DNA from: a virus
Reading direction: 5' to 3' (one strand)
Virus record (IMG/VR): IMGVR_UViG_3300020160_003038
Location: 1 to 33,105 of that record
Length of the DNA stretch: 33,105 bases
This document shows positions 8,801 to 33,105 of the stretch, one piece after another. The notes below the pieces were generated by a model. That model had not been told where the DNA came from, did no database searches, and saw only the letters and a list, made by a program, of their open reading frames with translations. How positions within the stretch are numbered: the first letter of the stretch is position 1; each line of letters starts with the position of its first letter. The position numbers were made by a program, and so were the translations under genes.

Positions 8801-11800
8801 TAATTATCAAACAACATCAATTGTAGGTCTTTCTTCAGCATATCAATATTATATTTCAAAATTGGATGATAATTCTTTTAGATTATTTAATGCTGGAATT
8901 GGAGGAACAAATCTTTCAAATTACAATAGAAAAAATTATATTAAATTTTCTTCAACAGGATCAGGATATCAATATTTTAAATATCCCGATATTTCAGTTT
9001 CGATAACTTATTCTAGGGAGAGTTCTAGCACCTATACTACTATTATAGCAACCCCTGTGGTTAGGGGAAGTATTATTGATACATATTTGTATGAAAGTGG
9101 TACAGGTTATGGATCAACTAACTTAAATTTTCACAAAAAACCACTAATTGCAATAAAGACGGGAAAAGAGTCTCAGGTAAAACCAGTTATTATTAATGGG
9201 ACAATTGATTCAGTTAATCTTCAATATGGGGGATATGATTACTATTCTGTCCCAGATTTGATCATAACAGATCCTACTAATTCTGGAACAGGTGCAGAAT
9301 TAAGACCAGTTATATCAAATGGAAAAATAACTTCGGTCCAAATTACTAATCCTGGAATAGGATATTCAACTTCCACAACTATCTTAGTAAAATCTTCAGG
9401 TATTAATGCACTTCTTGATGTTAATGTTAGAGAATTAACTGTCAATAATAATGTAAAACTTGGAAATGAAATACTAATTGAAAAAGGTAATAATTTGCAA
9501 TATGTAATTTCTGGATATTTTGATACTCTTAGGAATTCATTCAATGATATTGATTCAAAACATTCTGAAATTATTGGATGGTCATATGATGGAAATCCAA
9601 TATATGGACCATATGGGTATCCTGATCCAGAAGTAGAATCTGGATTAAAACTCTTGACTTCTGGATATACGCAGAGTACCTCCAATGTTTTTGATAGACC
9701 TAGTGTATTTGATGGAGGATTCTTTGTAGAAGACTATGCATATACAAATTCTGGCGACTTAGATGAATATAATGGAAGATTTGGAAAAACTCCAGAATTT
9801 CCAAATGGAGTTTATGCATATTTTGCCACATTAACAAGTCAAACTTTAGTACCAACATTTCCATATTTTATTGGAAACAAGTATAGGTCAAATTATATTG
9901 GTGATAATTTAAATATTGACCAATCATTTGATTTTAATAATTCATCCTTAATTAGAAATACCTTTCCATATAAAATTTCCGATAAGTATGCTTCTAATGA
10001 TTTTATAATTGAGTCAAATGAATTCTCAAATCAAAAATCAGTTATTGAATCAGTGACAGAAGGATCTGTAGAAAATTTTGATATCTCAAATTTTGGGTCA
10101 GATTATAAAATTAATGATTCTCTAGAATTTGATAATGACACATCTGGGGGTGGATTAATTGTAAAAGTATCTTCAATAAAGGGAAAGGAAATTGTAAATC
10201 TTAATACTTCAGTACAAACTTATGAAAGCGTTGTTTTTAATTGGAAAAATGAAGGTGAAGTAAAAGCATTTATCAAACCATATCATACATTATCCAATAG
10301 TGATTATATTACAATTTCTGGATTTTCTACTAATCTAAGTCAATTAAATGGATCCTACCAAATAGGAGTTACTTCATATTCATCTTCTTGCATTTCTTCA
10401 ATAACTTCATCAACAGTAGGATTTTCTACTGAAATTTATGTATCCCAATTACCTTCAGAACCAATATCAGTTGGAAGTAGTATTGTTATTGGCAATGAAA
10501 CATTAAAAGTTCTGGAAATATTTAAAAATTTAAATATTTTGAAAGTTCAAAGAGGTTCTAGTGGAGTATCTCATACTGCAACAACACAAATAAATTTCTT
10601 GCCAGATTATTTTACATTTACAAATAATACCAATTATTTTGATTCATATTCAACTGATAAAGTTTATTTTAATCCAAAAGAAAGTATTGGAGTTGGTACA
10701 GATGTTGGAATTACAAGTTCAATAACTTTCAATTTTGGAGTTTCTTCAATAACTAGAATAATTCCAACGAAAGGAATTTATATTGAAAATCATCCATTTA
10801 GAGACAATCAAAAAGTTATTTTTGAAAAAACTACCGGTGCTCCCCAACTTTCTATATCAACTACATCTAATCTTGCAGATGCGGTTAGTTTTCCAAGTTC
10901 TGGAAATTCTCAAATAGCATATATTGTAAACAAAAATAAAAATACAATAGGGATAAAAACAAGTATAAATTCTGCAGAAGTATTTTTTACAAATATTAAC
11001 GGTGCCAATGATGATGAATATTCTTTTAGTAGTACTTATGATCAAGTAATTGGTAATGTAGAAAAAATCAAATCTACGGTTTCAGTTTCTACTTCACATA
11101 ATTTGACTAATGGAGATTTAATTGATCTTATTATTAATCCAAATTTATCAGTTGGTATTGGTACTTCAACTTCAATTTATGTAAAAAGAAACTCAATTGA
11201 CAATAAGATTCTTATGAATCCTATTGGATTCAACTCAACTGGTATTAGTACACAAACAAATACTATCACAATTAATTCTCATAACTTAAATACTGGGGAT
11301 AAAATCTACTACTCATCAACAGATTTAATTGCATCAGGATTATCTACAGGATCATATTTTGTATATAAAGTTGATAACAATAAGATTAAACTTTCTGAGA
11401 CATATACAGATTCCGAGGTTAATCCACCGGTAGTAGTAAGTATTGCAGGTACTGGTGGAAAATATCAAAATATTTCATTAATAAATCCACAAATAAAAAC
11501 TGTTAAGAATAATGATCTAGTATTCAAATTATCCGATTCTTCTTTATCTGGATACAAATTTAAAATTTATTATGATCAGGAATTTAAAAATGAATTTGTT
11601 TCTACCGCAACAACTTCAGGATTTACACTGATTGGTGTTGGAACTGTAGGAGTATCTTCAACTGCATCAGTAACTATAAAATATGATAGTAATTTACCAA
11701 CCAAGTTATATTATAATTTGGAAAAATCTGGATACATAAGTACTTCTGATAAAGATGTAAGTAACTATTCGGAAATATTATTTGTTGATAGTCAATATAC

Positions 11801-14800
11801 CAATGCCTATTCAGTTTTTGGTGTAGGAACAACAACTTTCAATATTACATTGAATAAGATTCCAGAAAAATTAACATATTCTCAGGATGAATGTGATGTT
11901 ATCGAATATTCCACAACTTCCATCTCATCAAAAGGACCTATTGATAAAATTAACATCATATCCGGAGGAACTGGATATAAAAAACTTCCATCACTTTCCG
12001 GATTCAATTCTGAAGATGGAAAAGATGCTTATGTCATTGCAAAATCAAAAACAATAGGATATCCAAAAGAGGTTAGAATTATTAATGAAGGTTTTGAGTA
12101 TTCTTGCGATAAAACTTTAAGGCCGGATGCTTATATATCACCATTGATTACAATTGAAAATTCAAATACAATTTCAAAAATTAATATTTTGGATGGGGGA
12201 AGGAATTATGTAAATGCACCTTCTATCACGGTTGTTGATTCGGAAACTGGAGAGAAGATAGATAGTGGAATTTTAGAAGCAACTCTATCCGGAAGTTCAA
12301 TTAATTCTTTAAATATTATTCAAGAACCAAAAGGATTACCACCAACAACAGTAAAATTATTTGCTACAAATAATACTAATGGAATTAGTATTCAAAAAGT
12401 TGAATCATCATCTAGTGGAATTTTTACATGTGCAATAACTACTCCAAGTTTAGGATTTAGTACAAATCCATTTAGTATTGGTGATAAAGTATTTGTTGAG
12501 GGAATACAAAAACAAGGTATTGGATCTGGATTTAATTCTGAAGACTATGGTTATGAGTTCTTTACTGTCAGCAATTATGATAATAGTGAGATTTTAGATA
12601 GAGTTACATTTAATATTTCCGGATTAACAACAAATACTGGAGTAGCAAAAACCATTCAAGATTCAGTTGCAAATATTATAAAATATGATGATTATCCAAA
12701 ATTTGAAATTATACAAAAAATATCTTATTTTAGAATTGGGGAAAAAATTATTTCTGATGGAATAGAGAGGGATTTGATTATCTCAAATTCCGAAAGTAAT
12801 TTTATTAAAGTATATGGTACTTATAATCTTTCATTAGGTGAAGTTATAATAGGAAAAGAATCTGGAAATATTGCAACAATAAGTAAAATAGAACCAAATC
12901 TAGGAAAATTTAAAATTGATTATGCAGTAGAAAAACAAAATGGTTGGGCAAATGATATTGGAAAATTAAATGAAGATACCCAGACAATTTCTGACAATGA
13001 TTATTATCAAAATCTTTCATACACCATAAAAAGTCCTATTGGGTATGATAATTTAAAAACATCAGTAAATAATTTACTCCACACCAGTGGGTTGAAAAAT
13101 TTTGCAGATACGCAAATTACATCTAATGGCAAATCTGGAATCTCAAGTTCACAATATTTAAATATAGTTTATGATATAATAGGAGAAAATAGAGTTGATA
13201 CGATTTATAATTTTGATTTAGTTAAAGATATTGATGTAGTAAATAACTCTTCAAAGTTTATAAAATTAAATAAAAAAAGATTATCTAATTATACTGATTG
13301 TATAACTAATAAAGTTTTGAAAATAGATGATGTAAGTAAAAGATTTTCTGATTCTGATGGAAATCCTTCAACATTTTTAAATATTTTAAAAATTGATTCT
13401 TCAAATTCATATAATGAATTTCTTTTTAGAATTTCAAATACTTCTAATAATCAAATTCAATTGACAGAATTGATTGTATTATCTGATCAAAATAATGTAT
13501 TTCAAATACAAAAGAATTCCATATTCAATTCCAATAGTGATACTGAATATGGAGCATTTTCAATATATGAAGATGAAATAGGCGAGAATTATCTACAATT
13601 TATTCCAACAAATCCATATGATTATGATTATGATATCAAATTAATTAGAAGTAAGTTTAACTCATCTTTGGCGGGAATTGGGTCTACATCTATAGGATTT
13701 GTCAATCTTACTGGTGCAGCAACGACTTCAATGTCTGGAGTAACAACTTCAATTATTTCTATTCCAACATATAAATTTGAATCATTGTATGCAAATGTTC
13801 AAATAATTAATAATATTAATAATTCAACCAACCAAATGAATTTTGTTGATGTTTATTTAAACTACGATGGAACACATACTTATATTTCCGAATATTATGT
13901 TGATTCAGAGTCTTCAACAAATAATTATTCTGGCAATTTAATTGGAACTTTTGGTGCTAGCATTTCATCCGGAATAATATCACTAAACTATACCAATAAT
14001 TCATCAAGTCTAGTCAATATTCGTTCAAAAATTGTTGGGTTTGGAACAACTGCAGTTGGAGTAGGAACTTATAGATTTAAATTGTCAGGAGAAATAGATG
14101 GTTTAGAGCAGACTGCAATATATCAATCAAATTATTTGAAAAATGTTTCTCTAGCATCCACAACTCTAACAACACTAAACAAATTTAATTTTAATGCAAT
14201 CAAATCTTTTGTTAAAGTAGGTATAGGATCTACTAGTGCTTTACACAAAATATTATTGATTCAAGATGGAACAAACTTTTATATACAACAATCAGCATTT
14301 CTTTCACTTGAAGGTTCATTGGGAATAGGAACATTGGGAATAGGAACTTTTGGTGGAGAATATTCTGGAAATAATTTTGAATTTAAATTCTATAAAGATT
14401 CAAATATAAATTCAAATATTGATATTCTTTCATTTAATCAATGTATATACACTGATGTAAATGGTGACAATATTCCACCAAATCTTTCCTATGGTAAAGT
14501 TGATGAATCTTTTGAAATTCTCCAATATAATTCAATTAATGGAGATAGAATTCGTAGATTAGATTTTGATTTGAAAACTAATGGAAATCCAATATTTGCA
14601 AAAATCTTTGATCCTATTGATAGTACGGTTTTAAATCTTTCAACCGGCGAATTTATAATTAAAAATCATTTCTTTAGCAATCTTGAAAAATTAATTTATA
14701 CTCCAAAATCTACATTTATTGGAATAGGAGAAAGTTCTGTAGGAATAGGATCAACATTAAATTCAGTTGGTGTGCTTACCAATAGATTACCATCCGAAGT

Positions 14801-17540
14801 TTATGTTATTAAAATATCTAATGATACATTCAAATTATCTACTAGAAGAGATTATGCATCATTAGGAATAGGGGTAACATTTACTTCTTATGGTCTAGGA
14901 AATGCTCATCAACTTGAAATGGATCACAAAAATGACAAATCATTAATTATTGTTGATAATATTGCACAATACCCGTTAATTTATACTCCCATAAATTACA
15001 GTCTTTTTAATAATGGAGGTCAAATTAATAGTTCTTCAACTATATTCTCTTTAAGTGGAATTTCCTCAATATCACCAAATAATATACTTAAGATTGATAA
15101 TGAATATATGAAGGTTATTTCGGTTGGATTTGGAACTACAAGTATTGGTCCTATAACTAATGCTGGATCTTTTTCATTGGTCGAAGTTTCTAGAGGTTTT
15201 GTGGGATCATCTGCAACTACTCACCAAGATACTGTCGGAATTGCAACAATTTATACAGGATCTTACAATATTGTTGGAAGTAAAATTTTCTTTGCAGAAG
15301 CACCAAGAGGAAATCCACAATTAAATATAGATAGGGGCAATTTGTCATATGAAACTTCCGATTTTTCTGGAAGAGTATTTTTAAGAAATGATTATAGTAC
15401 AAATCAAATTTATGATGATTTATCCTATAAATTTACAGGAATAGGGAGGACATTTACATTAACTAGTCAAGGAATTAATACGGTGGGACTAGGATCTACT
15501 GGAGGAAATGGAATTCTTTTCATAAATGGAGTTTTCCAAACACCCACGACAGATAATAATCCAAAAAATAATTTTAAAATTATTGAAAATTCTGGAATAT
15601 CAAGTGTTATATTTTCTGGTATTACATCTGCTAATAGTTTAGATGTACTCACATCACAGTTTGATGTTAATCAAAATCAAACTCCAAGAGGAGGAATAAT
15701 AGTTTCTCTTGGATCATCCCTTGGGTTGGGTTATGCACCTCTTGTTGGGGCATCCGTAACAGCAGTTCTAAATGGAGGAAGTATTATATCTGTTGGATTG
15801 GGAACAACAGATAATTTGGGTTCTGGATATAATGGTATTGTTTCTGTAGGGGTAAGTGTATATCAAAGTGGACATCAAGGTACTCCAGCAGCAATAACAG
15901 CATCTGTTGGTGCTGGTGGAACCCTGTCATTTAATATTGTTTATGGTGGTGACGGATATACAAATCCAAAAATATTAGTTTCTCCACCATCTTATGAGAA
16001 TTTAGAAGTCATTGGTGTGTCCAGATTGGGGATAGGAACAACAACTACCACAGGAATTGGATTACTACTGACAGTTGATGTTGACGCGGGTATTACTTCT
16101 TCTACTGGAATAGGATCTACATATTTTGGCGTATCATCGTTCAAAATTTCTAGACAAGGATATTCATTTAATCGTGGAGATGTATTTAAACCGGTCGGAT
16201 TAGTTACAGATAAAAGATTATTATCTCCAATATCCGAATTTAAATTAACAGTTATAGAAACATTTTCGGATTCTTTTGCTGCTTGGCAGTTTGGGGAATT
16301 TGATTATATAGATTCTGTAAAAAATTATCAAGATGGACTAAGAACTAGATTTCCATTATACTACAATTCCAATTTACTTAGTTTTGAAGCTGCCGAGGAT
16401 TCTCTTATAGATTTAAACAATTTATTATTAATCATTATTAATGGAGTTATCCAAGAACCTGGGGTTTCATATCAATTTGCAGGGGGAACATCCTTTATAT
16501 TTACTACTGCACCAAAATTTGAAGATGATATTGCAATATTCTTTTATAGAGGAACTAAGGGATCTGATAGTAAACTTGTTTTAAATATACCTGAAACTAT
16601 AAAAAAAGGTGATACTGTTCAAATACTTAAAAGAAATGATATAAAAGGAACCTTGTCTCAAAATGAAAGGGTAGTATTTGATTTAACAAGTTCTGATAAA
16701 TTTGAAACTGATTTGTATTCTGGTCAAGGTGTAGATAGTATTAATAATAAACCAATGAGTTGGACTAAACAGAAAAAGGATAGTTTTATTAGTGGTGAAA
16801 TAGTTTATAAATCCAGAGATTCAATAGAGTCTTTGGTTTATCCAACTACAAACATAATTAAAGATTTTTCAACTACCGATAAAGAAATTTTTGTAGATAA
16901 CGCACAATTCTTTAATTATGAAAATGAGGGGTCTCCACAATTCAATGCCATAATTATTGATCCAAATTCTGTAAATACTGTTGGATTGGTTACCAATTTC
17001 AAAAAAGAAGTTATAACTAATATTTCTTTAGTTGAAGGTTTTTCAGGAATCATTACTGGCATAGGTACAACATCTGGAATAGGAGTTCCTTTAGCACTCA
17101 AATTTTATTTAAATTCTGTTGGAGCAGGACTTTCGGCTGGTTATCCAATTTATATTTGGAATACTAATGTTGGAAAAGGAGTTACTTCAATTTATAATTC
17201 AAATTCTTCAGTTGTTGGAGTTGGAACTACTTTCTTAGATAATATCTACAATATCAGTGCATATTCTGTCAATATTAATGATGTTGGCATCATTACTTGC
17301 AACATACTGTCATTAACTTCTACAGTAGGACTTGCGACTTCTGGATCTATGGTCGGAAATTTCTCTTGGGGTAAAATGTCCGGATTCTCCAGATCTAGTT
17401 CTCCAATTTCAATAGGTGTTACTGGAAAAATTGTTGATGTTGGATTGTCAACTTTTTCAACAATTCAGAGAAGAAGTAGTTCTGAGCAAGGTATTGGTGT
17501 AAGAGGTACTGGATCATTACCCAAAAAAATATCTGAATAA
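5850..17540 (+). CDS. gp7: Giant gp7-like baseplate wedge protein, 3,896 aa, repeat-rich
   Basis: The position between gp6 and gp8 and the N-terminus (residues 1-60 and 160-250, including SLFLKEFYKKLKYTLTPGLE and KGTDESFRILFNILFGVTPK) identify the marine T4-like gp7, which starts wedge assembly. T4 gp7 has 1,032 residues, so this is nearly four times longer. The rest is built from recurring beta-rich modules: a 'GDEII..RG..G...H' module (about 102-140, 1539-1580, 3078-3128); at least seven 'H..L..GD.(V/I).Y...YYV....IKL' modules (about 607-661, 841-907, 966-1016, 1643-1705, 1741-1790, 1804-1852, 2935-2997); at least nine GG-x-GY motifs; a YHYH-like domain (about 1235-1330: GWSYDGNPIYGPYGYPD, then LDEYNGRFGKTPEFPNGVYA); and two 'INGV.Q.P' modules (about 3193-3257 and 3490-3570). 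It lacks a signal peptide or membrane segment. The extra modules probably project from the baseplate rim; binding of host or fibre is inference. The frame is unbroken over 11.7 kb. Confidence 0.85.
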   Translation: MIQTGFESRVKIQQIIDNQLPEFILDESPKASEFLKQYYISQEYQGGPVDIAENLDQYLKLDNLTPEVVVGNTSLSSNITSTVGIITVTSTKGFPQKYGLIKIGDEIITYTGITTNTFTGCIRGFSGITSYHAVSNQEELVFSTSKSSVHTSGSSVQNLSSLFLKEFYKKLKYTLTPGLEDVDFVSDLNVGNFIKNARSFYQSKGTDESFRILFNILFGVTPKIVNLENFLIKPSAAQYVRRKVVSAERISGAGDPSKLVGQSIFKSTDPTTSASVSEIEIFTKSNTKYYKISLFIGYDERSAIEGDFTITQNTKCLENVSIGSSVISVDSTIGFKESGTIVSGNNTISYTDKTINQFLGCTGINEVLNSIDNIRSDEIYFGYENGDTTKKVEFRITGVLSEFVPVSQSFKVSVGDEISIKSLGELIEDTGSSYKEIFANSWIYNTSSRYEIETFIESKPKLKSTTNKSSLKVGDIVEIVERYSNIVRYPTTISNVPYVKSINNDLKTLELNDFSLSGWYSSSVEYDLRRKVNKASSSTIPIEYGNDTILSDVLNVYNENDDYAYVASNSFPSNNKNLLRPYTYQITTDTISSIAFQLSDKIDENYYSTINFNDPVPFITGDRVYYQPSSSVISGLETGSYYVEVQGNNKKIKLYDSKSFIGSNNYIKYLNSTLNSQNTHRFVLYSQKSETISGQKILKKFPLNPNTENGNGELTQPGSIGMLINGVEIENYKSNDKVYYGPLKSINVLNGGSNYDVINPPSITISAGLGITALVQPVLSGSIKKVFVDAQDFDINTIVSIAVTGGNGNGAVLEPILKQRFREIYFDGRLSTNSGGVDYENETITFLTNHNLNDGDRVIYNSNGNDAIGIGTFGKSNNNQNISLSNNSEYYIKKESNNTIKLYPSFSEYSVGINTIGFTEVYNSGIHKFTSLSNKKTISEIKVINGGQGYQNRKLIVNPTGISTINHTINFNSHGFNEGDLIEYNYQTTSIVGLSSAYQYYISKLDDNSFRLFNAGIGGTNLSNYNRKNYIKFSSTGSGYQYFKYPDISVSITYSRESSSTYTTIIATPVVRGSIIDTYLYESGTGYGSTNLNFHKKPLIAIKTGKESQVKPVIINGTIDSVNLQYGGYDYYSVPDLIITDPTNSGTGAELRPVISNGKITSVQITNPGIGYSTSTTILVKSSGINALLDVNVRELTVNNNVKLGNEILIEKGNNLQYVISGYFDTLRNSFNDIDSKHSEIIGWSYDGNPIYGPYGYPDPEVESGLKLLTSGYTQSTSNVFDRPSVFDGGFFVEDYAYTNSGDLDEYNGRFGKTPEFPNGVYAYFATLTSQTLVPTFPYFIGNKYRSNYIGDNLNIDQSFDFNNSSLIRNTFPYKISDKYASNDFIIESNEFSNQKSVIESVTEGSVENFDISNFGSDYKINDSLEFDNDTSGGGLIVKVSSIKGKEIVNLNTSVQTYESVVFNWKNEGEVKAFIKPYHTLSNSDYITISGFSTNLSQLNGSYQIGVTSYSSSCISSITSSTVGFSTEIYVSQLPSEPISVGSSIVIGNETLKVLEIFKNLNILKVQRGSSGVSHTATTQINFLPDYFTFTNNTNYFDSYSTDKVYFNPKESIGVGTDVGITSSITFNFGVSSITRIIPTKGIYIENHPFRDNQKVIFEKTTGAPQLSISTTSNLADAVSFPSSGNSQIAYIVNKNKNTIGIKTSINSAEVFFTNINGANDDEYSFSSTYDQVIGNVEKIKSTVSVSTSHNLTNGDLIDLIINPNLSVGIGTSTSIYVKRNSIDNKILMNPIGFNSTGISTQTNTITINSHNLNTGDKIYYSSTDLIASGLSTGSYFVYKVDNNKIKLSETYTDSEVNPPVVVSIAGTGGKYQNISLINPQIKTVKNNDLVFKLSDSSLSGYKFKIYYDQEFKNEFVSTATTSGFTLIGVGTVGVSSTASVTIKYDSNLPTKLYYNLEKSGYISTSDKDVSNYSEILFVDSQYTNAYSVFGVGTTTFNITLNKIPEKLTYSQDECDVIEYSTTSISSKGPIDKINIISGGTGYKKLPSLSGFNSEDGKDAYVIAKSKTIGYPKEVRIINEGFEYSCDKTLRPDAYISPLITIENSNTISKINILDGGRNYVNAPSITVVDSETGEKIDSGILEATLSGSSINSLNIIQEPKGLPPTTVKLFATNNTNGISIQKVESSSSGIFTCAITTPSLGFSTNPFSIGDKVFVEGIQKQGIGSGFNSEDYGYEFFTVSNYDNSEILDRVTFNISGLTTNTGVAKTIQDSVANIIKYDDYPKFEIIQKISYFRIGEKIISDGIERDLIISNSESNFIKVYGTYNLSLGEVIIGKESGNIATISKIEPNLGKFKIDYAVEKQNGWANDIGKLNEDTQTISDNDYYQNLSYTIKSPIGYDNLKTSVNNLLHTSGLKNFADTQITSNGKSGISSSQYLNIVYDIIGENRVDTIYNFDLVKDIDVVNNSSKFIKLNKKRLSNYTDCITNKVLKIDDVSKRFSDSDGNPSTFLNILKIDSSNSYNEFLFRISNTSNNQIQLTELIVLSDQNNVFQIQKNSIFNSNSDTEYGAFSIYEDEIGENYLQFIPTNPYDYDYDIKLIRSKFNSSLAGIGSTSIGFVNLTGAATTSMSGVTTSIISIPTYKFESLYANVQIINNINNSTNQMNFVDVYLNYDGTHTYISEYYVDSESSTNNYSGNLIGTFGASISSGIISLNYTNNSSSLVNIRSKIVGFGTTAVGVGTYRFKLSGEIDGLEQTAIYQSNYLKNVSLASTTLTTLNKFNFNAIKSFVKVGIGSTSALHKILLIQDGTNFYIQQSAFLSLEGSLGIGTLGIGTFGGEYSGNNFEFKFYKDSNINSNIDILSFNQCIYTDVNGDNIPPNLSYGKVDESFEILQYNSINGDRIRRLDFDLKTNGNPIFAKIFDPIDSTVLNLSTGEFIIKNHFFSNLEKLIYTPKSTFIGIGESSVGIGSTLNSVGVLTNRLPSEVYVIKISNDTFKLSTRRDYASLGIGVTFTSYGLGNAHQLEMDHKNDKSLIIVDNIAQYPLIYTPINYSLFNNGGQINSSSTIFSLSGISSISPNNILKIDNEYMKVISVGFGTTSIGPITNAGSFSLVEVSRGFVGSSATTHQDTVGIATIYTGSYNIVGSKIFFAEAPRGNPQLNIDRGNLSYETSDFSGRVFLRNDYSTNQIYDDLSYKFTGIGRTFTLTSQGINTVGLGSTGGNGILFINGVFQTPTTDNNPKNNFKIIENSGISSVIFSGITSANSLDVLTSQFDVNQNQTPRGGIIVSLGSSLGLGYAPLVGASVTAVLNGGSIISVGLGTTDNLGSGYNGIVSVGVSVYQSGHQGTPAAITASVGAGGTLSFNIVYGGDGYTNPKILVSPPSYENLEVIGVSRLGIGTTTTTGIGLLLTVDVDAGITSSTGIGSTYFGVSSFKISRQGYSFNRGDVFKPVGLVTDKRLLSPISEFKLTVIETFSDSFAAWQFGEFDYIDSVKNYQDGLRTRFPLYYNSNLLSFEAAEDSLIDLNNLLLIIINGVIQEPGVSYQFAGGTSFIFTTAPKFEDDIAIFFYRGTKGSDSKLVLNIPETIKKGDTVQILKRNDIKGTLSQNERVVFDLTSSDKFETDLYSGQGVDSINNKPMSWTKQKKDSFISGEIVYKSRDSIESLVYPTTNIIKDFSTTDKEIFVDNAQFFNYENEGSPQFNAIIIDPNSVNTVGLVTNFKKEVITNISLVEGFSGIITGIGTTSGIGVPLALKFYLNSVGAGLSAGYPIYIWNTNVGKGVTSIYNSNSSVVGVGTTFLDNIYNISAYSVNINDVGIITCNILSLTSTVGLATSGSMVGNFSWGKMSGFSRSSSPISIGVTGKIVDVGLSTFSTIQRRSSSEQGIGVRGTGSLPKKISE
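14317..14346. repeat. 15-bp perfect tandem repeat inside gp7
   Basis: CATTGGGAATAGGAA occurs twice in direct succession (14317-14331, 14332-14346), encoding LGIGTLGIGT in frame. It is a likely site of recent in-frame slippage and one instance of the GIGT motif scattered through gp7. Confidence 0.85.
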
Positions 17541-17545
17541 TGGAT

Positions 17546-17553
17546 TATAAATA
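17546..17553 (+). promoter_or_regulatory. T4-style late promoter before gp8
   Basis: A perfect TATAAATA octamer lies in the 30-base gap between gp7 and gp8, 17 bases before the gp8 ATG at 17571. It would allow gp8 and the 2,445-residue protein to be made independently of the 11.7-kb gp7 message. Confidence 0.75.
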
Positions 17554-26834: not shown

Positions 26835-26842
26835 TATAAATA
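26835..26842 (+). promoter_or_regulatory. T4-style late promoter before the neck/terminase operon
   Basis: A perfect TATAAATA in the only gap between the small helical ORF and the 114-residue virion protein, 24 bases before the ATG at 26867. It would drive the chain of overlapping genes through gp15 and probably gp16. Confidence 0.8.
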
Positions 26843-26866: not shown

Positions 26867-27211
26867 ATGGCTGCAGTATATGTTAGCAATCTAGTCATTA
26901 ATGCTGGGGCAGATTTTAGCCAAATTTTTACCTTAGAAAGTATCTCTACAAATTCAGTTTTGGATTTGTCTACTTATACAATTACCTCACAGATGCGAAA
27001 GCACTCTGCTAGTTCATCTTCAATCAATTTTGTCTCCACTGTAGTAAATCCATCTGAGGGCACTATAAAAATTGGATTGACCAGTACAACTACAAAGAAT
27101 ATAAAACCAGGAAGATATATTTACGATATTAATGCTTACAATTCTTCTGATGGAATCACATCTAGAGTAATTGAAGGAATGGTTTTAGTGAGGGAAGGGG
27201 TAACTAGGTAA
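26867..27211 (+). CDS. Small beta-rich virion-type protein, 114 aa
   Basis: The sequence (MAAVYVSNLVINAGADFSQI; TITSQMRKHSASSSSINF; GRYIYDINAYNSSDG; VIEGMVLVREGVTR) shows alternating strands like an immunoglobulin-type or BppU N-terminal-like sandwich. I recognise it as a recurrent small structural protein of T4-like marine phages that precedes gp13. The MVLVREGVTR ending is characteristic. First gene after the TATAAATA promoter; its TAA shares an A with the next ATG (TAATG). Confidence 0.7.
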   Translation: MAAVYVSNLVINAGADFSQIFTLESISTNSVLDLSTYTITSQMRKHSASSSSINFVSTVVNPSEGTIKIGLTSTTTKNIKPGRYIYDINAYNSSDGITSRVIEGMVLVREGVTR

Positions 27212-30597: not shown

Positions 30598-31026
30598 ATG
30601 GCAAATAATTTTGAATCTATTGATAAGGCATTGAATACTGAAAGTAGTATTATTGAGGTTGAATCTAAAACATCAGATATTGAATTAATAAAAACAACTC
30701 CAGATGACATTCAAAAAGATTATGAATATACTAGAGCAAATTTATATTCTTTAATTGAAAAAGGTCAAGAAGCAATTAATGGAATATTGGAACTTGCTGG
30801 AGAAGGTGGAAGTGCGAGAGCATATGAAGTTGCTGGACAAGTAATTAAGAGTGTTGCAGATACTACCGATAAATTAATGGATCTTCAAAAGAAAATAAGG
30901 AGTATTGAAGATGATGCGGTAAAGACCACTAATAATGTGACAAATAATGCAGTATTTGTTGGATCAACTTCAGAATTGCAAAAATTATTGAAACAGGGTT
31001 TTCTAAATAATAAAGATAAATCTTAA
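30598..31026 (+). CDS. gp16: Small terminase subunit gp16
   Basis: At 142 residues it is slightly shorter than T4 gp16 (164). The central helical hairpin with ARAYEVAGQVIKSVADTTDK and LMDLQKKIRSIEDD is the oligomerisation coiled coil of T4-like small terminases; the N-terminal part (TTPDDIQKDYEYTRANLYSL) and the C-terminal VFVGSTSELQKLLKQG are conserved too. gp16 forms rings that regulate the large terminase gp17 and DNA recognition during packaging. The large-terminase gene does not follow directly, which is unusual: eight bases after the stop comes the 491-residue mosaic gene. Confidence 0.87.
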   Translation: MANNFESIDKALNTESSIIEVESKTSDIELIKTTPDDIQKDYEYTRANLYSLIEKGQEAINGILELAGEGGSARAYEVAGQVIKSVADTTDKLMDLQKKIRSIEDDAVKTTNNVTNNAVFVGSTSELQKLLKQGFLNNKDKS

Positions 31027-31034
31027 TCATATAA

Positions 31035-32510
31035 ATGCAACTGAAATCTCATAGAACAGTTGAACAGATTGCAAGGAAACATCGCATGGATGTCTCAGAT
31101 ATTCAGAGGCAACTTGATATGGGAATTCCTATTGAACATGAGCATAGTCGCAATAAAATTTTAGCTACAGATATTGCTCTTCAGCATTTGGATGAGATTC
31201 CAGATTATTATACTCGTCTTAAAAAAATGGAAGCATCTGCAAAGAAAGAACATAAAAAGTTCAAGGATGTGAAAGAAGATGCAGTAACTGACCTTCAAAG
31301 AGGTATTACTGAATTACCTGATGCATCTTATGATTCCATTGATAATTTAATGAGACGCATTATGAAGAAAAGAAAAATGAGTGCCAAACAACTTCATAAT
31401 GATTTTGCCGATAAACACAATCAAACTCCAGATACTTGGGCAAAAAAGAACATGAAAGAAGAAAAAGGTCTTTGGGACAATATACATGCTCGCAGAGAAA
31501 AAGGACTTCCTAGAAAAAAACCAGGACAAAAGGGATATCCAAAAACTTTAGATATTGAAGAAGGTTTAAAGCAAGCACGTAAAAATGTTGGTGCTAGCAA
31601 GTGTTGGCCAGGTAAAGTTGCTAAAGGGACAAAAATAAAGAACGGTGAAGAAGTTCCAGACTGCCGCCCCATCAAAGAAGAATCTGGAGTAAGATATTGC
31701 CCAAAATGTGCAAAAGATGAAACTCGTGATGAGTGCAAATATGGACAAAAGTATTGGGATATGTTCTCAATGCCCATTACTTTAAAAGATTATACACCAA
31801 ATACTCCTCATCCTGGAAATATGCCAGAAGAAAAGGATCATGAGTATTCAATGGCTCGTTCTGAATTGGATACAATCATGAATGCTACAAAGAGATTGAA
31901 GAAAAAGATGAAAGGAGAAGGTAATATTAAAGCATGGGTTCAATCAAAAATTACCAAAGCTGCAGATTATATTGATACCGCCGCCGATTATATGGATAGT
32001 GGTGAGAGTAAAGTAAACGAGGATGTTACGATTGAAGACGCAAATGGAAATACATTTATTCAGATTATTGATATTATCAAAGCAGATCGTCTTGTAAAAG
32101 AAGCAAAGAAAATGAAGGGTGAAGACCCCTGCTGGAAAGGATATGAGATGATTGGCAAAAAGAAAAAGGGTGGTAAGGAAGTACCAAATTGTGTTCCAAA
32201 AGAGCAGAAATCTTTTGATTCTTTTATGACAGAAGCATCACCTGCTTGGCAAAGAAAAGAGGGAAAGAATTCTGAGGGTGGTCTAAATAAAAAAGGGATT
32301 GCTTCTTACCGCAAAGAGAATCCTGGATCAAACCTCTCACTTGCGGTCACAACAAAACCATCCAAATTAAAAAAAGGATCAAAATCAGCAAATCGTAGAA
32401 AGTCATTTTGTTCCCGTATGAGTGGAATGAAAGATAAACTCACATCAGCAAAAACTGCCAATGATCCCAATTCAAGAATAAATAAGTCATTGAGAAAGTG
32501 GAATTGTTAG
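31035..32510 (+). CDS. Basic multi-domain mosaic protein, 491 aa, between gp16 and the right-hand gene
   Basis: The protein strings together small domains that I recognise as recurrent in marine phages. Residues 1-68 (VEQIARKHRMDVSDIQRQLD ... ALQHLDEIPDYYTRLKKME) match the DUF5661 pattern. Residues 90-140 hold a second helical unit (ELPDASYDSIDNLMRRIMKK ... PDTWAKKN). A 'CW-(x)n-G-K/G-K-E-V-P-(D/N)-C' loop occurs twice (C190-C210 and C366-C386). A Cys cluster (C222, C225, C234) could bind zinc. Residues 401-491 form a Lys/Arg-rich tail (AWQRKEGKNSEGGLNKKGIA ... SRINKSLRKWNC) typical of another uncharacterised marine-phage domain, perhaps DUF6321. No catalytic residues can be named. It is highly basic and probably binds DNA or sits in the prohead. 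The ATG at 31035 is eight bases after gp16. Confidence 0.75.
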   Translation: MQLKSHRTVEQIARKHRMDVSDIQRQLDMGIPIEHEHSRNKILATDIALQHLDEIPDYYTRLKKMEASAKKEHKKFKDVKEDAVTDLQRGITELPDASYDSIDNLMRRIMKKRKMSAKQLHNDFADKHNQTPDTWAKKNMKEEKGLWDNIHARREKGLPRKKPGQKGYPKTLDIEEGLKQARKNVGASKCWPGKVAKGTKIKNGEEVPDCRPIKEESGVRYCPKCAKDETRDECKYGQKYWDMFSMPITLKDYTPNTPHPGNMPEEKDHEYSMARSELDTIMNATKRLKKKMKGEGNIKAWVQSKITKAADYIDTAADYMDSGESKVNEDVTIEDANGNTFIQIIDIIKADRLVKEAKKMKGEDPCWKGYEMIGKKKKGGKEVPNCVPKEQKSFDSFMTEASPAWQRKEGKNSEGGLNKKGIASYRKENPGSNLSLAVTTKPSKLKKGSKSANRRKSFCSRMSGMKDKLTSAKTANDPNSRINKSLRKWNC

Positions 32511-32511
32511 T

Positions 32512-33105
32512 ATGTCGTCGGAACTAAATGATTTTTTTAAATTATTAGCGGAAGATAAGAAAAAGAAAAAAGACGAATTTGATTCTGTAGTCGGAGACTT
32601 GGGATTAGATTCACTTTTTAATGAATTTGCAACACTTAAGAAAAAGGAAAAGGAAAAGAAAGTAGAAGAGCAAAAAGAACAAGAATCTATTATAGGTGAA
32701 ATCACTTTAGATTCTGTTTTTGAGGAAGTTGCTAATTTAAAGAAGGAAACTAAAAAGAAAAAGGTACAAGAACAAAAAACAGTTCAGGCATTTGAGAAAT
32801 GGTTGTACTCAGAGACAACCAAAGAACAAGAACAAATTATTGAGGATGTAATTGAAGAATCTTTAGATGAAGTTCTTGAAGTATTGGACGATCATAAAGA
32901 AGTACTTGAGCGACCAACTTTAATTGAAAAATCATTAGGTCTTCTTGCTGAACCTCCAAATGTTAAGCAACAACAGGATCCATTAACTCCACTGGATCAA
33001 AAGTTTGCAACACTTGAAGATTTACAAAAACATTACAGCACTTTCCTTTCTCGTATTCAACAACAACTTTCCACATTAGGTGGAGGTGGAGAAACTCGTT
33101 TAAGA
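32512..33105 (+). CDS. Charged repeat protein, 5' part (runs off the right end)
   Basis: An uninterrupted frame of 198 codons starts at ATG 32512, one base after the preceding TAG ends, and is still open at the window edge. Three copies of an 'L(N/D)xxFxxxA/L..KKK' unit occur at about residues 5-20, 32-48 and 66-84, each followed by a Lys/Glu-rich coiled segment. It then has an acidic helix (IIEDVIEESLDEVLEVLDD), SLGLLAEPPNV, PLTPLDQKFATLEDLQKHY and the glycine run GGGGETRLR. I recall this C-terminal pattern from marine T4-like virion proteins, where a beta-structured part follows. Function unknown; a scaffold-like or fibre-anchoring N-terminus is inference. Confidence 0.7.
   Translation, partial: MSSELNDFFKLLAEDKKKKKDEFDSVVGDLGLDSLFNEFATLKKKEKEKKVEEQKEQESIIGEITLDSVFEEVANLKKETKKKKVQEQKTVQAFEKWLYSETTKEQEQIIEDVIEESLDEVLEVLDDHKEVLERPTLIEKSLGLLAEPPNVKQQQDPLTPLDQKFATLEDLQKHYSTFLSRIQQQLSTLGGGGETRLR

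Follow-up and report, generated by a model that had tools for sequence, protein, structure and literature searches.

A mosaic protein gene next to gp16 in a cyanophage-like genome fragment carries a T4-like capsid-targeting signal and may encode a precursor of capsid-internal proteins

The region to the right of gp16 in the IMG/VR record IMGVR_UViG_3300020160_003038 raises the question of what this virus encodes where the large terminase gene, gp17, could be expected. The window analysed here is the entire record, 33105 bases comprising a T4-like structural module, and its closest matches are to Kyanoviridae that infect Synechococcus. As originally predicted, the gene next after gp16 (phrog_445 'terminase small subunit', E 8.6e-54; Pfam PF11053 DNA_Packaging, 1.8e-5) encodes a 491-aa protein, hereafter the mosaic, and then comes a second ORF, ORF2 (Table 1). 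The further claim that gp17 is missing did not hold. The record is a fragment whose end falls within ORF2, and in all 64 fetched loci that extend as far as gp17, that gene lies on the right-hand side of gp16, beyond whichever gene or genes intervene. Terminase_6N had no match anywhere in the record, and Pfam and PHROG scans of the mosaic and ORF2 returned no terminase match. Amongst the relatives, gp17 was found directly 3' of the mosaic in L086, L090, L145 and L053 and after the ORF2 homologue in L147, L129, L099 and L102, whilst in many other loci two other genes, of ~102-aa and ~430-aa families, preceded it. Because locus L147 displays the order ORF2 (331 aa), a 261-aa gene and then gp17, gp17 would be expected roughly 1-3 kb past the window edge, to the right of ORF2. 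Its apparent absence is a contig-end effect, and it has not been replaced by the mosaic. ORF2, described at first as unknown, proved to be so only in part: it has hits to tail-fibre PHROGs (phrog_30742, E 7.6e-17), and a match to annotated tail-fibre proteins was found over residues 141-198.

Table 1. Features of the gp16-mosaic region and their positions in the 33105-base window (within a sequence, here and in the text, a slash marks a known or proposed cut site)
Feature	Position	Strand	Basis
TATAAATA, candidate late-promoter octamer of T4 type, 25 nt upstream of the ORF that starts at 26867	26835..26842	+	suggestive only
Head-tail adaptor	27543		PHROG and Pfam
Head closure	28385		PHROG and Pfam
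Tail sheath stabiliser gp15	29788		PHROG and Pfam
gp16, small terminase subunit, left neighbour of the mosaic	30598..31026	+	PHROG, Pfam
491-aa mosaic, DUF5661...DUF6321; proposed precursor of capsid-internal proteins	31035..32510	+	domains, same-site relatives, virion homologues
DUF5661 domain, residues 10-66, helical	31062..31232	+	Pfam E 2.5e-15; model pLDDT mostly >90
Other candidate [ILVM]xE prohead-protease sites E81, E142, E176, E215, E265, E329, E356	31269..32102	+	family enrichment
First CW...EVPxC loop, C190-C210	31602..31664	+	predicted beta-hairpin (194-212)
Cys cluster module RYCPKC...C, residues 220-236	31692..31742	+	alignment
Second CW...EVPxC loop, C366-C386	32130..32192	+	predicted beta-hairpin (370-388)
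Internal capsid-targeting-like KSFDSFMTE, residues 392-400, proposed cut after E400	32208..32234	+	T4 template, PMC9026906
Basic DUF6321 cargo, residues 401-491	32235..32507	+	10.0 kDa, net +18, pI 10.8
ORF2, tail-fibre-like structural gene, 5' portion only (truncated at the window edge)	32512..33105	+	PHROG matches

Some observations on gp17 and on promoters were made alongside. The gp17 genes of several relatives (L099 at 11770-16005, L097, L102, L027, L043, L115 and Synechococcus phage B23, L002) are interrupted in two places, around residue 90 and around residue 270, with L099 and L097 carrying both interruptions. The former is intein-like in B23 and lies in the Walker A region; the latter is about 1 kb long, involves frame changes in L043 and L115, and had no Rfam match. 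Judging by sequence, 'tail sheath protein' and 'terminase large subunit' are apparently interchanged as gene names in the GenBank entry of S-SRM01 (L001:15821-19782). The octamer TATAAATA occurs only twice in the window, at 17546-17553 and 26835-26842 on the + strand, each time 25 nt upstream of an ORF start (17571 and 26867), and the second of these ORFs is the first in the series of genes that leads up to the mosaic. With fewer copies than expected by chance (2 vs ~7), the identification of these octamers as T4-type late promoters is suggestive only.

The mosaic belongs to a known cyanophage family, DUF6321/T4-GC119, and its homologues include the S-SM1 and P-RSM4 proteins labelled T4-GC 119. 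It matched 518 phage records, and nearly all of its relatives sit between gp16 and gp17, as in S-SRM01, DSL-LC02, B23, S-SCSM1, S-CREM2 and others. We found no literature on DUF6321 and DUF5661, and the papers searched proposed no function for the family. From its position the gene had originally been linked to packaging. An accessory factor working with gp16 and gp17 would be consistent with a site conserved in nearly all loci and with the very basic C-terminus. However, the g15-g18 stretch of cyanophages has been described as hyperplastic and as a site where genes of host origin have been inserted (PMC2984593, PMC3037559), and therefore position alone is a weak guide to function; plastocyanin, PTOX, gnd and zwf are housed in the same insertion region. 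DUF6321 also occurs as a standalone protein in a pelagiphage and in the T7-like cyanophage (podovirus) P-SCSP1i, where an 84-aa product (L170:2959-3213) is flanked by major capsid and tail-tube genes, and homologues of the mosaic are present in finished virions (see below). The paper describing the P-SCSP1u cryo-EM structure does not mention the standalone DUF6321 product among its modelled proteins. A packaging role is thus not supported and is the least probable of the readings weighed here; nor is the mosaic a substitute for the packaging motor.

The architecture originally proposed for the mosaic was confirmed in each of its parts. The DUF5661-like head corresponds to a match to PF18905 at residues 10-66, above the curated cut-off (57 bits vs 27), and both copies of the duplicated CW...EVPxC loop (C190-C210 and C366-C386) are predicted beta-hairpins. 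The Cys cluster comprises C222, C225 and C234 of the RYCPKC module, which together with R220 are invariant across 59 sequences; C459 and C491 complete the cysteines of the protein. The basic C-terminal domain, residues 401-491, contains a match to DUF6321 (PF19846) at residues 410-489 (E 3.8e-18; 66.3 bits vs a curated cut-off of 28.5), and its charge fits a nucleic-acid-associated internal protein. An AlphaFold2 model built from 59 sequences consisted of separate folded islands joined by low-confidence linkers (pTM 0.26), namely DUF5661, a helical unit at 83-140, the two beta-hairpins, a helical pair at 268-321, and DUF6321, which when modelled alone was helical with a pLDDT of 75.6. Searching solved structures with the mosaic sequence gave no match, the fold search with the whole model gave no PDB match with E<=0.001, and that with the DUF6321 model gave zero PDB matches. 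Fold matches in BFVD were mostly to members of the family. A weak N-Ada/DNA match (E 1.6) was set aside.

Directly upstream of DUF6321, residues 392-402 of the mosaic read KSFDSFMTE/AS. This segment conforms to the aromatic-xx-aromatic-[ILMV]-x-Glu pattern of the T4-type capsid-targeting sequence (CTS), with F394, F397, M398 and E400 at T4 CTS positions 4, 7, 8 and 10. In T4, the first ten residues of IPIII are sufficient for capsid targeting, CTS residues 4 and 7 are the most important for targeting, residues 8 and 10 are important for processing, and cleavage by gp21 follows L/I-X-E (PMC9026906). T4 ipII and ipIII both start with MKTYQEFIAE/A, whilst the signal in the mosaic is internal and the N-terminus of the protein, MQLKSHRTVEQIARKH, carries no capsid-targeting signal. 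Across 41 non-redundant family members the strict motif was counted 10 times, against 1.1+/-1.1 in shuffled and 1 in reversed sequences, although such shuffle controls overstate significance given that family members are related to each other. A relaxed pattern lacking the hydrophobic residue was dropped as evidence, as its count was high in reversed sequences too (18 vs 31). Amongst 128 members, strict internal copies were nearly all K[ST]FxxF[MVI]xE/A, apart from a few that differ at the first two residues, and the x positions (T4 positions 5, 6 and 9) varied freely. The strict motif preceded DUF6321 in only 21 of 118 DUF6321-bearing members, and a looser FSNWR form was present in 53 of the 118. 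A gp21-type site, FLSE/ASPT, was also identified near the N-terminus of the S-SRM01 capsid protein.

Similar tags were carried by neighbouring genes. The gene after the mosaic starts MKxFxxF[IL]xE in 65 of 102 loci, and phage S-SZBM1 encodes a standalone protein, SSZBM1_192, that begins MKTFKQYITE/A and has DUF6321 at its end; the mosaic therefore resembles an in-frame fusion of a gene of this kind to further modules on its upstream side. At the same S-SZBM1 locus, SSZBM1_194 (L166:1541-3664) encodes 707 aa that include a SAM-lyase domain and match DUF3008 weakly, and has an internal YREFIAE/G nearly identical to the YQEFIAE of T4. The T4-like CTS and prohead-protease signal before DUF6321 is the new element here, the family, the hyperplastic region and the virion homologues being already known.

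Detection of homologues in virions has been published for two phages. Mass spectrometry of S-SCSM1 virions identified 45 proteins (PMC9602691), and ORF29 of this phage, which contains CW, RYC and DUF6321 modules and adjoins terL, is recorded as a 'virion protein'. The virion proteome of S-CREM2 includes ORF136 (8 unique peptides) and ORF137 (4) (PMC10665884 Table 3), which are the two genes separating gp16 from gp17. Coverage of ORF137 was just 4.1% (4 peptides); its C-terminal end is DUF6321-like by alignment, and the S-N03 counterpart scores above the Pfam cut-off. Both proteomes (PMC9602691, PMC10665884) place these homologues in the virion as a whole. The original prediction also named head assembly or DNA condensation, with virion absence and unrelated sites as the contrary outcome; two homologues were found in virions, relatives are nearly all at the same site, and a T4-type signal precedes the basic domain, so that this part pointed in the right direction. 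An ordinary, uncut structural or head-decoration protein, in which the motif is an inherited remnant of fusion rather than a targeting or processing signal, would likewise be found in virions, and would suit both a gene that adjoins neck and tail genes and a strict motif confined to a minority of members. We nonetheless consider it unlikely, since the motif is retained at the T4 determinant positions while its neighbours vary, and since the same motif is found elsewhere in the genomes of these phages, on virion-borne enzymes.

In S-CREM2, scanned with the strict N-terminal pattern starting within residue 14, this tag was present only on gp6 (SAM hydrolase), gp14 (kinase) and gp154 (cytidylyltransferase). 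All three were positive by mass spectrometry, compared to 0/167 tagged amongst undetected ORFs (Fisher p=0.013), a value that is partly post hoc as the N-termini of gp6, gp14 and gp136 had been seen before the formal test. The Cas9-like gp12 has the strict pattern at residue 19, and near forms occur on gp13 and gp136. S-SCSM1 contained five start-codon tag candidates genome-wide, two of them at annotated gene starts: ORF91 (NMNAT), a virion protein, and ORF30, which has a perfect CTS yet is not recorded as a virion protein. The virion cytidylyltransferase S-SZBM1_140 begins MRFRQFIIE/A; the tagged cytidylyltransferases are mutually homologous, so that the tagged virion enzymes come from three proteomes but do not amount to three independent proteins. 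MK[ST]FxxF-tagged ORFs were also present in the uncultured relatives G001 and G003, where the Pfam matches amongst those scanned were one cytidylyltransferase-like and one DPBB. In the open-access papers searched we found no earlier statement that a T4-type tag loads head cargo in cyanophages. These tags bear on whether the mosaic is instead a cytoplasmic host-takeover protein that co-purifies with virions through its sticky basic domain. The authors of the proteomes do allow carry-over for some such proteins (PMC10665884, PMC9602691), but CTS-like tags occur on detected non-structural enzymes and are near absent elsewhere, and we regard carry-over of the mosaic as highly improbable.

Two side observations concern other proteins of these genomes. 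A DPBB/RlpA-like protein of an uncultured relative (L202:11473-11856) is tagged MKTFKQFMTE/A and may be head cargo that acts on the cell wall. The virion proteins S-CREM2 gp160 (L176:28342-29235) and S-SCSM1 ORF97 (L179:43121-43306) carry a copy of the capsid-protein arm GFTGxxAxxGPxAGYDPLM, which in the capsid protein lies shortly after the presumed cut site; such copies are possibly another route into the head.

Candidate cut sites were also enriched at module boundaries across the family. In 41 representatives, the frequency of [ILVM] two residues before Glu was 0.40 just upstream of modules compared to 0.18 elsewhere, and [ILVM]xE was found upstream of DUF6321 in 36/41 (13.4 expected), of CW loops in 31/36 (11.9 expected) and of the WFK module in 19/23 (4.9 expected). 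The RYC module showed no such excess upstream in these representatives, and the excess at ACYHK appeared only in a wider window chosen afterwards (22/28 vs 12.4). The mosaic itself has eight [ILVM]xE sites near module edges; its total count is mildly raised (10 vs 6.4, p 0.08), and their concentration in linkers within this one protein was not significant (p about 0.2). Family-wide enrichment at module boundaries is strong, whilst multi-site polyprotein processing is less certain than a single cut at E400. It is conceivable, and we propose it only tentatively, that the mosaic is a true capsid polyprotein cut by gp21 at up to eight sites (E81-E356 and E400), its beads being packaged and injected together, and that cyanophages swap both beads and whole enzymes by means of the T4-type tag.

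Taken with the locus, the domains and the motif, the virion homologues make it probable that the mosaic is synthesised late as a precursor from which capsid-internal ('ejection') proteins derive, in the manner of T4 IPI-III and Alt. We infer that KSFDSFMTE/AS would dock the chain onto the prohead scaffold core, and that a gp21 cut after E400 would release the 91-residue DUF6321 piece (+18). The freed piece would remain in the head, presumably bound to the DNA, and then enter the host, whilst the upstream beads (DUF5661, the CW loops and the RYCPKC module) would be carried along and perhaps also released at [ILVM]xE sites between them.

The mosaic shares with T4 IPI/IPII/IPIII and Alt the aromatic, aromatic, I/L/M/V and Glu/Ala residues at equal spacing, a basic cargo, homologues in virions and a T4-like head module. 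It differs in its cargo domains and in that its processing is predicted, and because its signal is internal, between modules, rather than N-terminal as in T4, we describe it as working like the T4 CTS internal proteins and not as a member of that group. With other T4-GC119/DUF6321 proteins it has the gp16-gp17 locus and the C-terminal domain in common, but its module order and upstream beads are different. The polyvalent injected phage proteins (PMC7824862) similarly place many domains on one chain and are proposed to enter the host with DNA; they carry recognised effector enzymes, whereas none was found in the mosaic, although at the corresponding S-SZBM1 locus a neighbouring protein does contain a SAM-lyase domain. 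Internal head proteins of phiKZ and SPN3US are processed by a prohead protease that cleaves after Glu within a short motif (PMC5694885), as proposed here, but in a giant-phage lineage, mostly with long propeptides and with A or S at P3.

Cyanophage proteome papers have reported virion enzymes, including a SAM hydrolase, a kinase, NMNAT and a Cas9-like nuclease, and have left undecided whether these are cargo or contamination. A T4-type signal on just these virion enzymes and on part of the widespread mosaic family would provide a sequence rule predicting injected cargo in one of the major virus groups of marine and fresh waters, and makes injection testable. It appears that T4-like cyanophages use a T4-type tag to load cargo into their heads.
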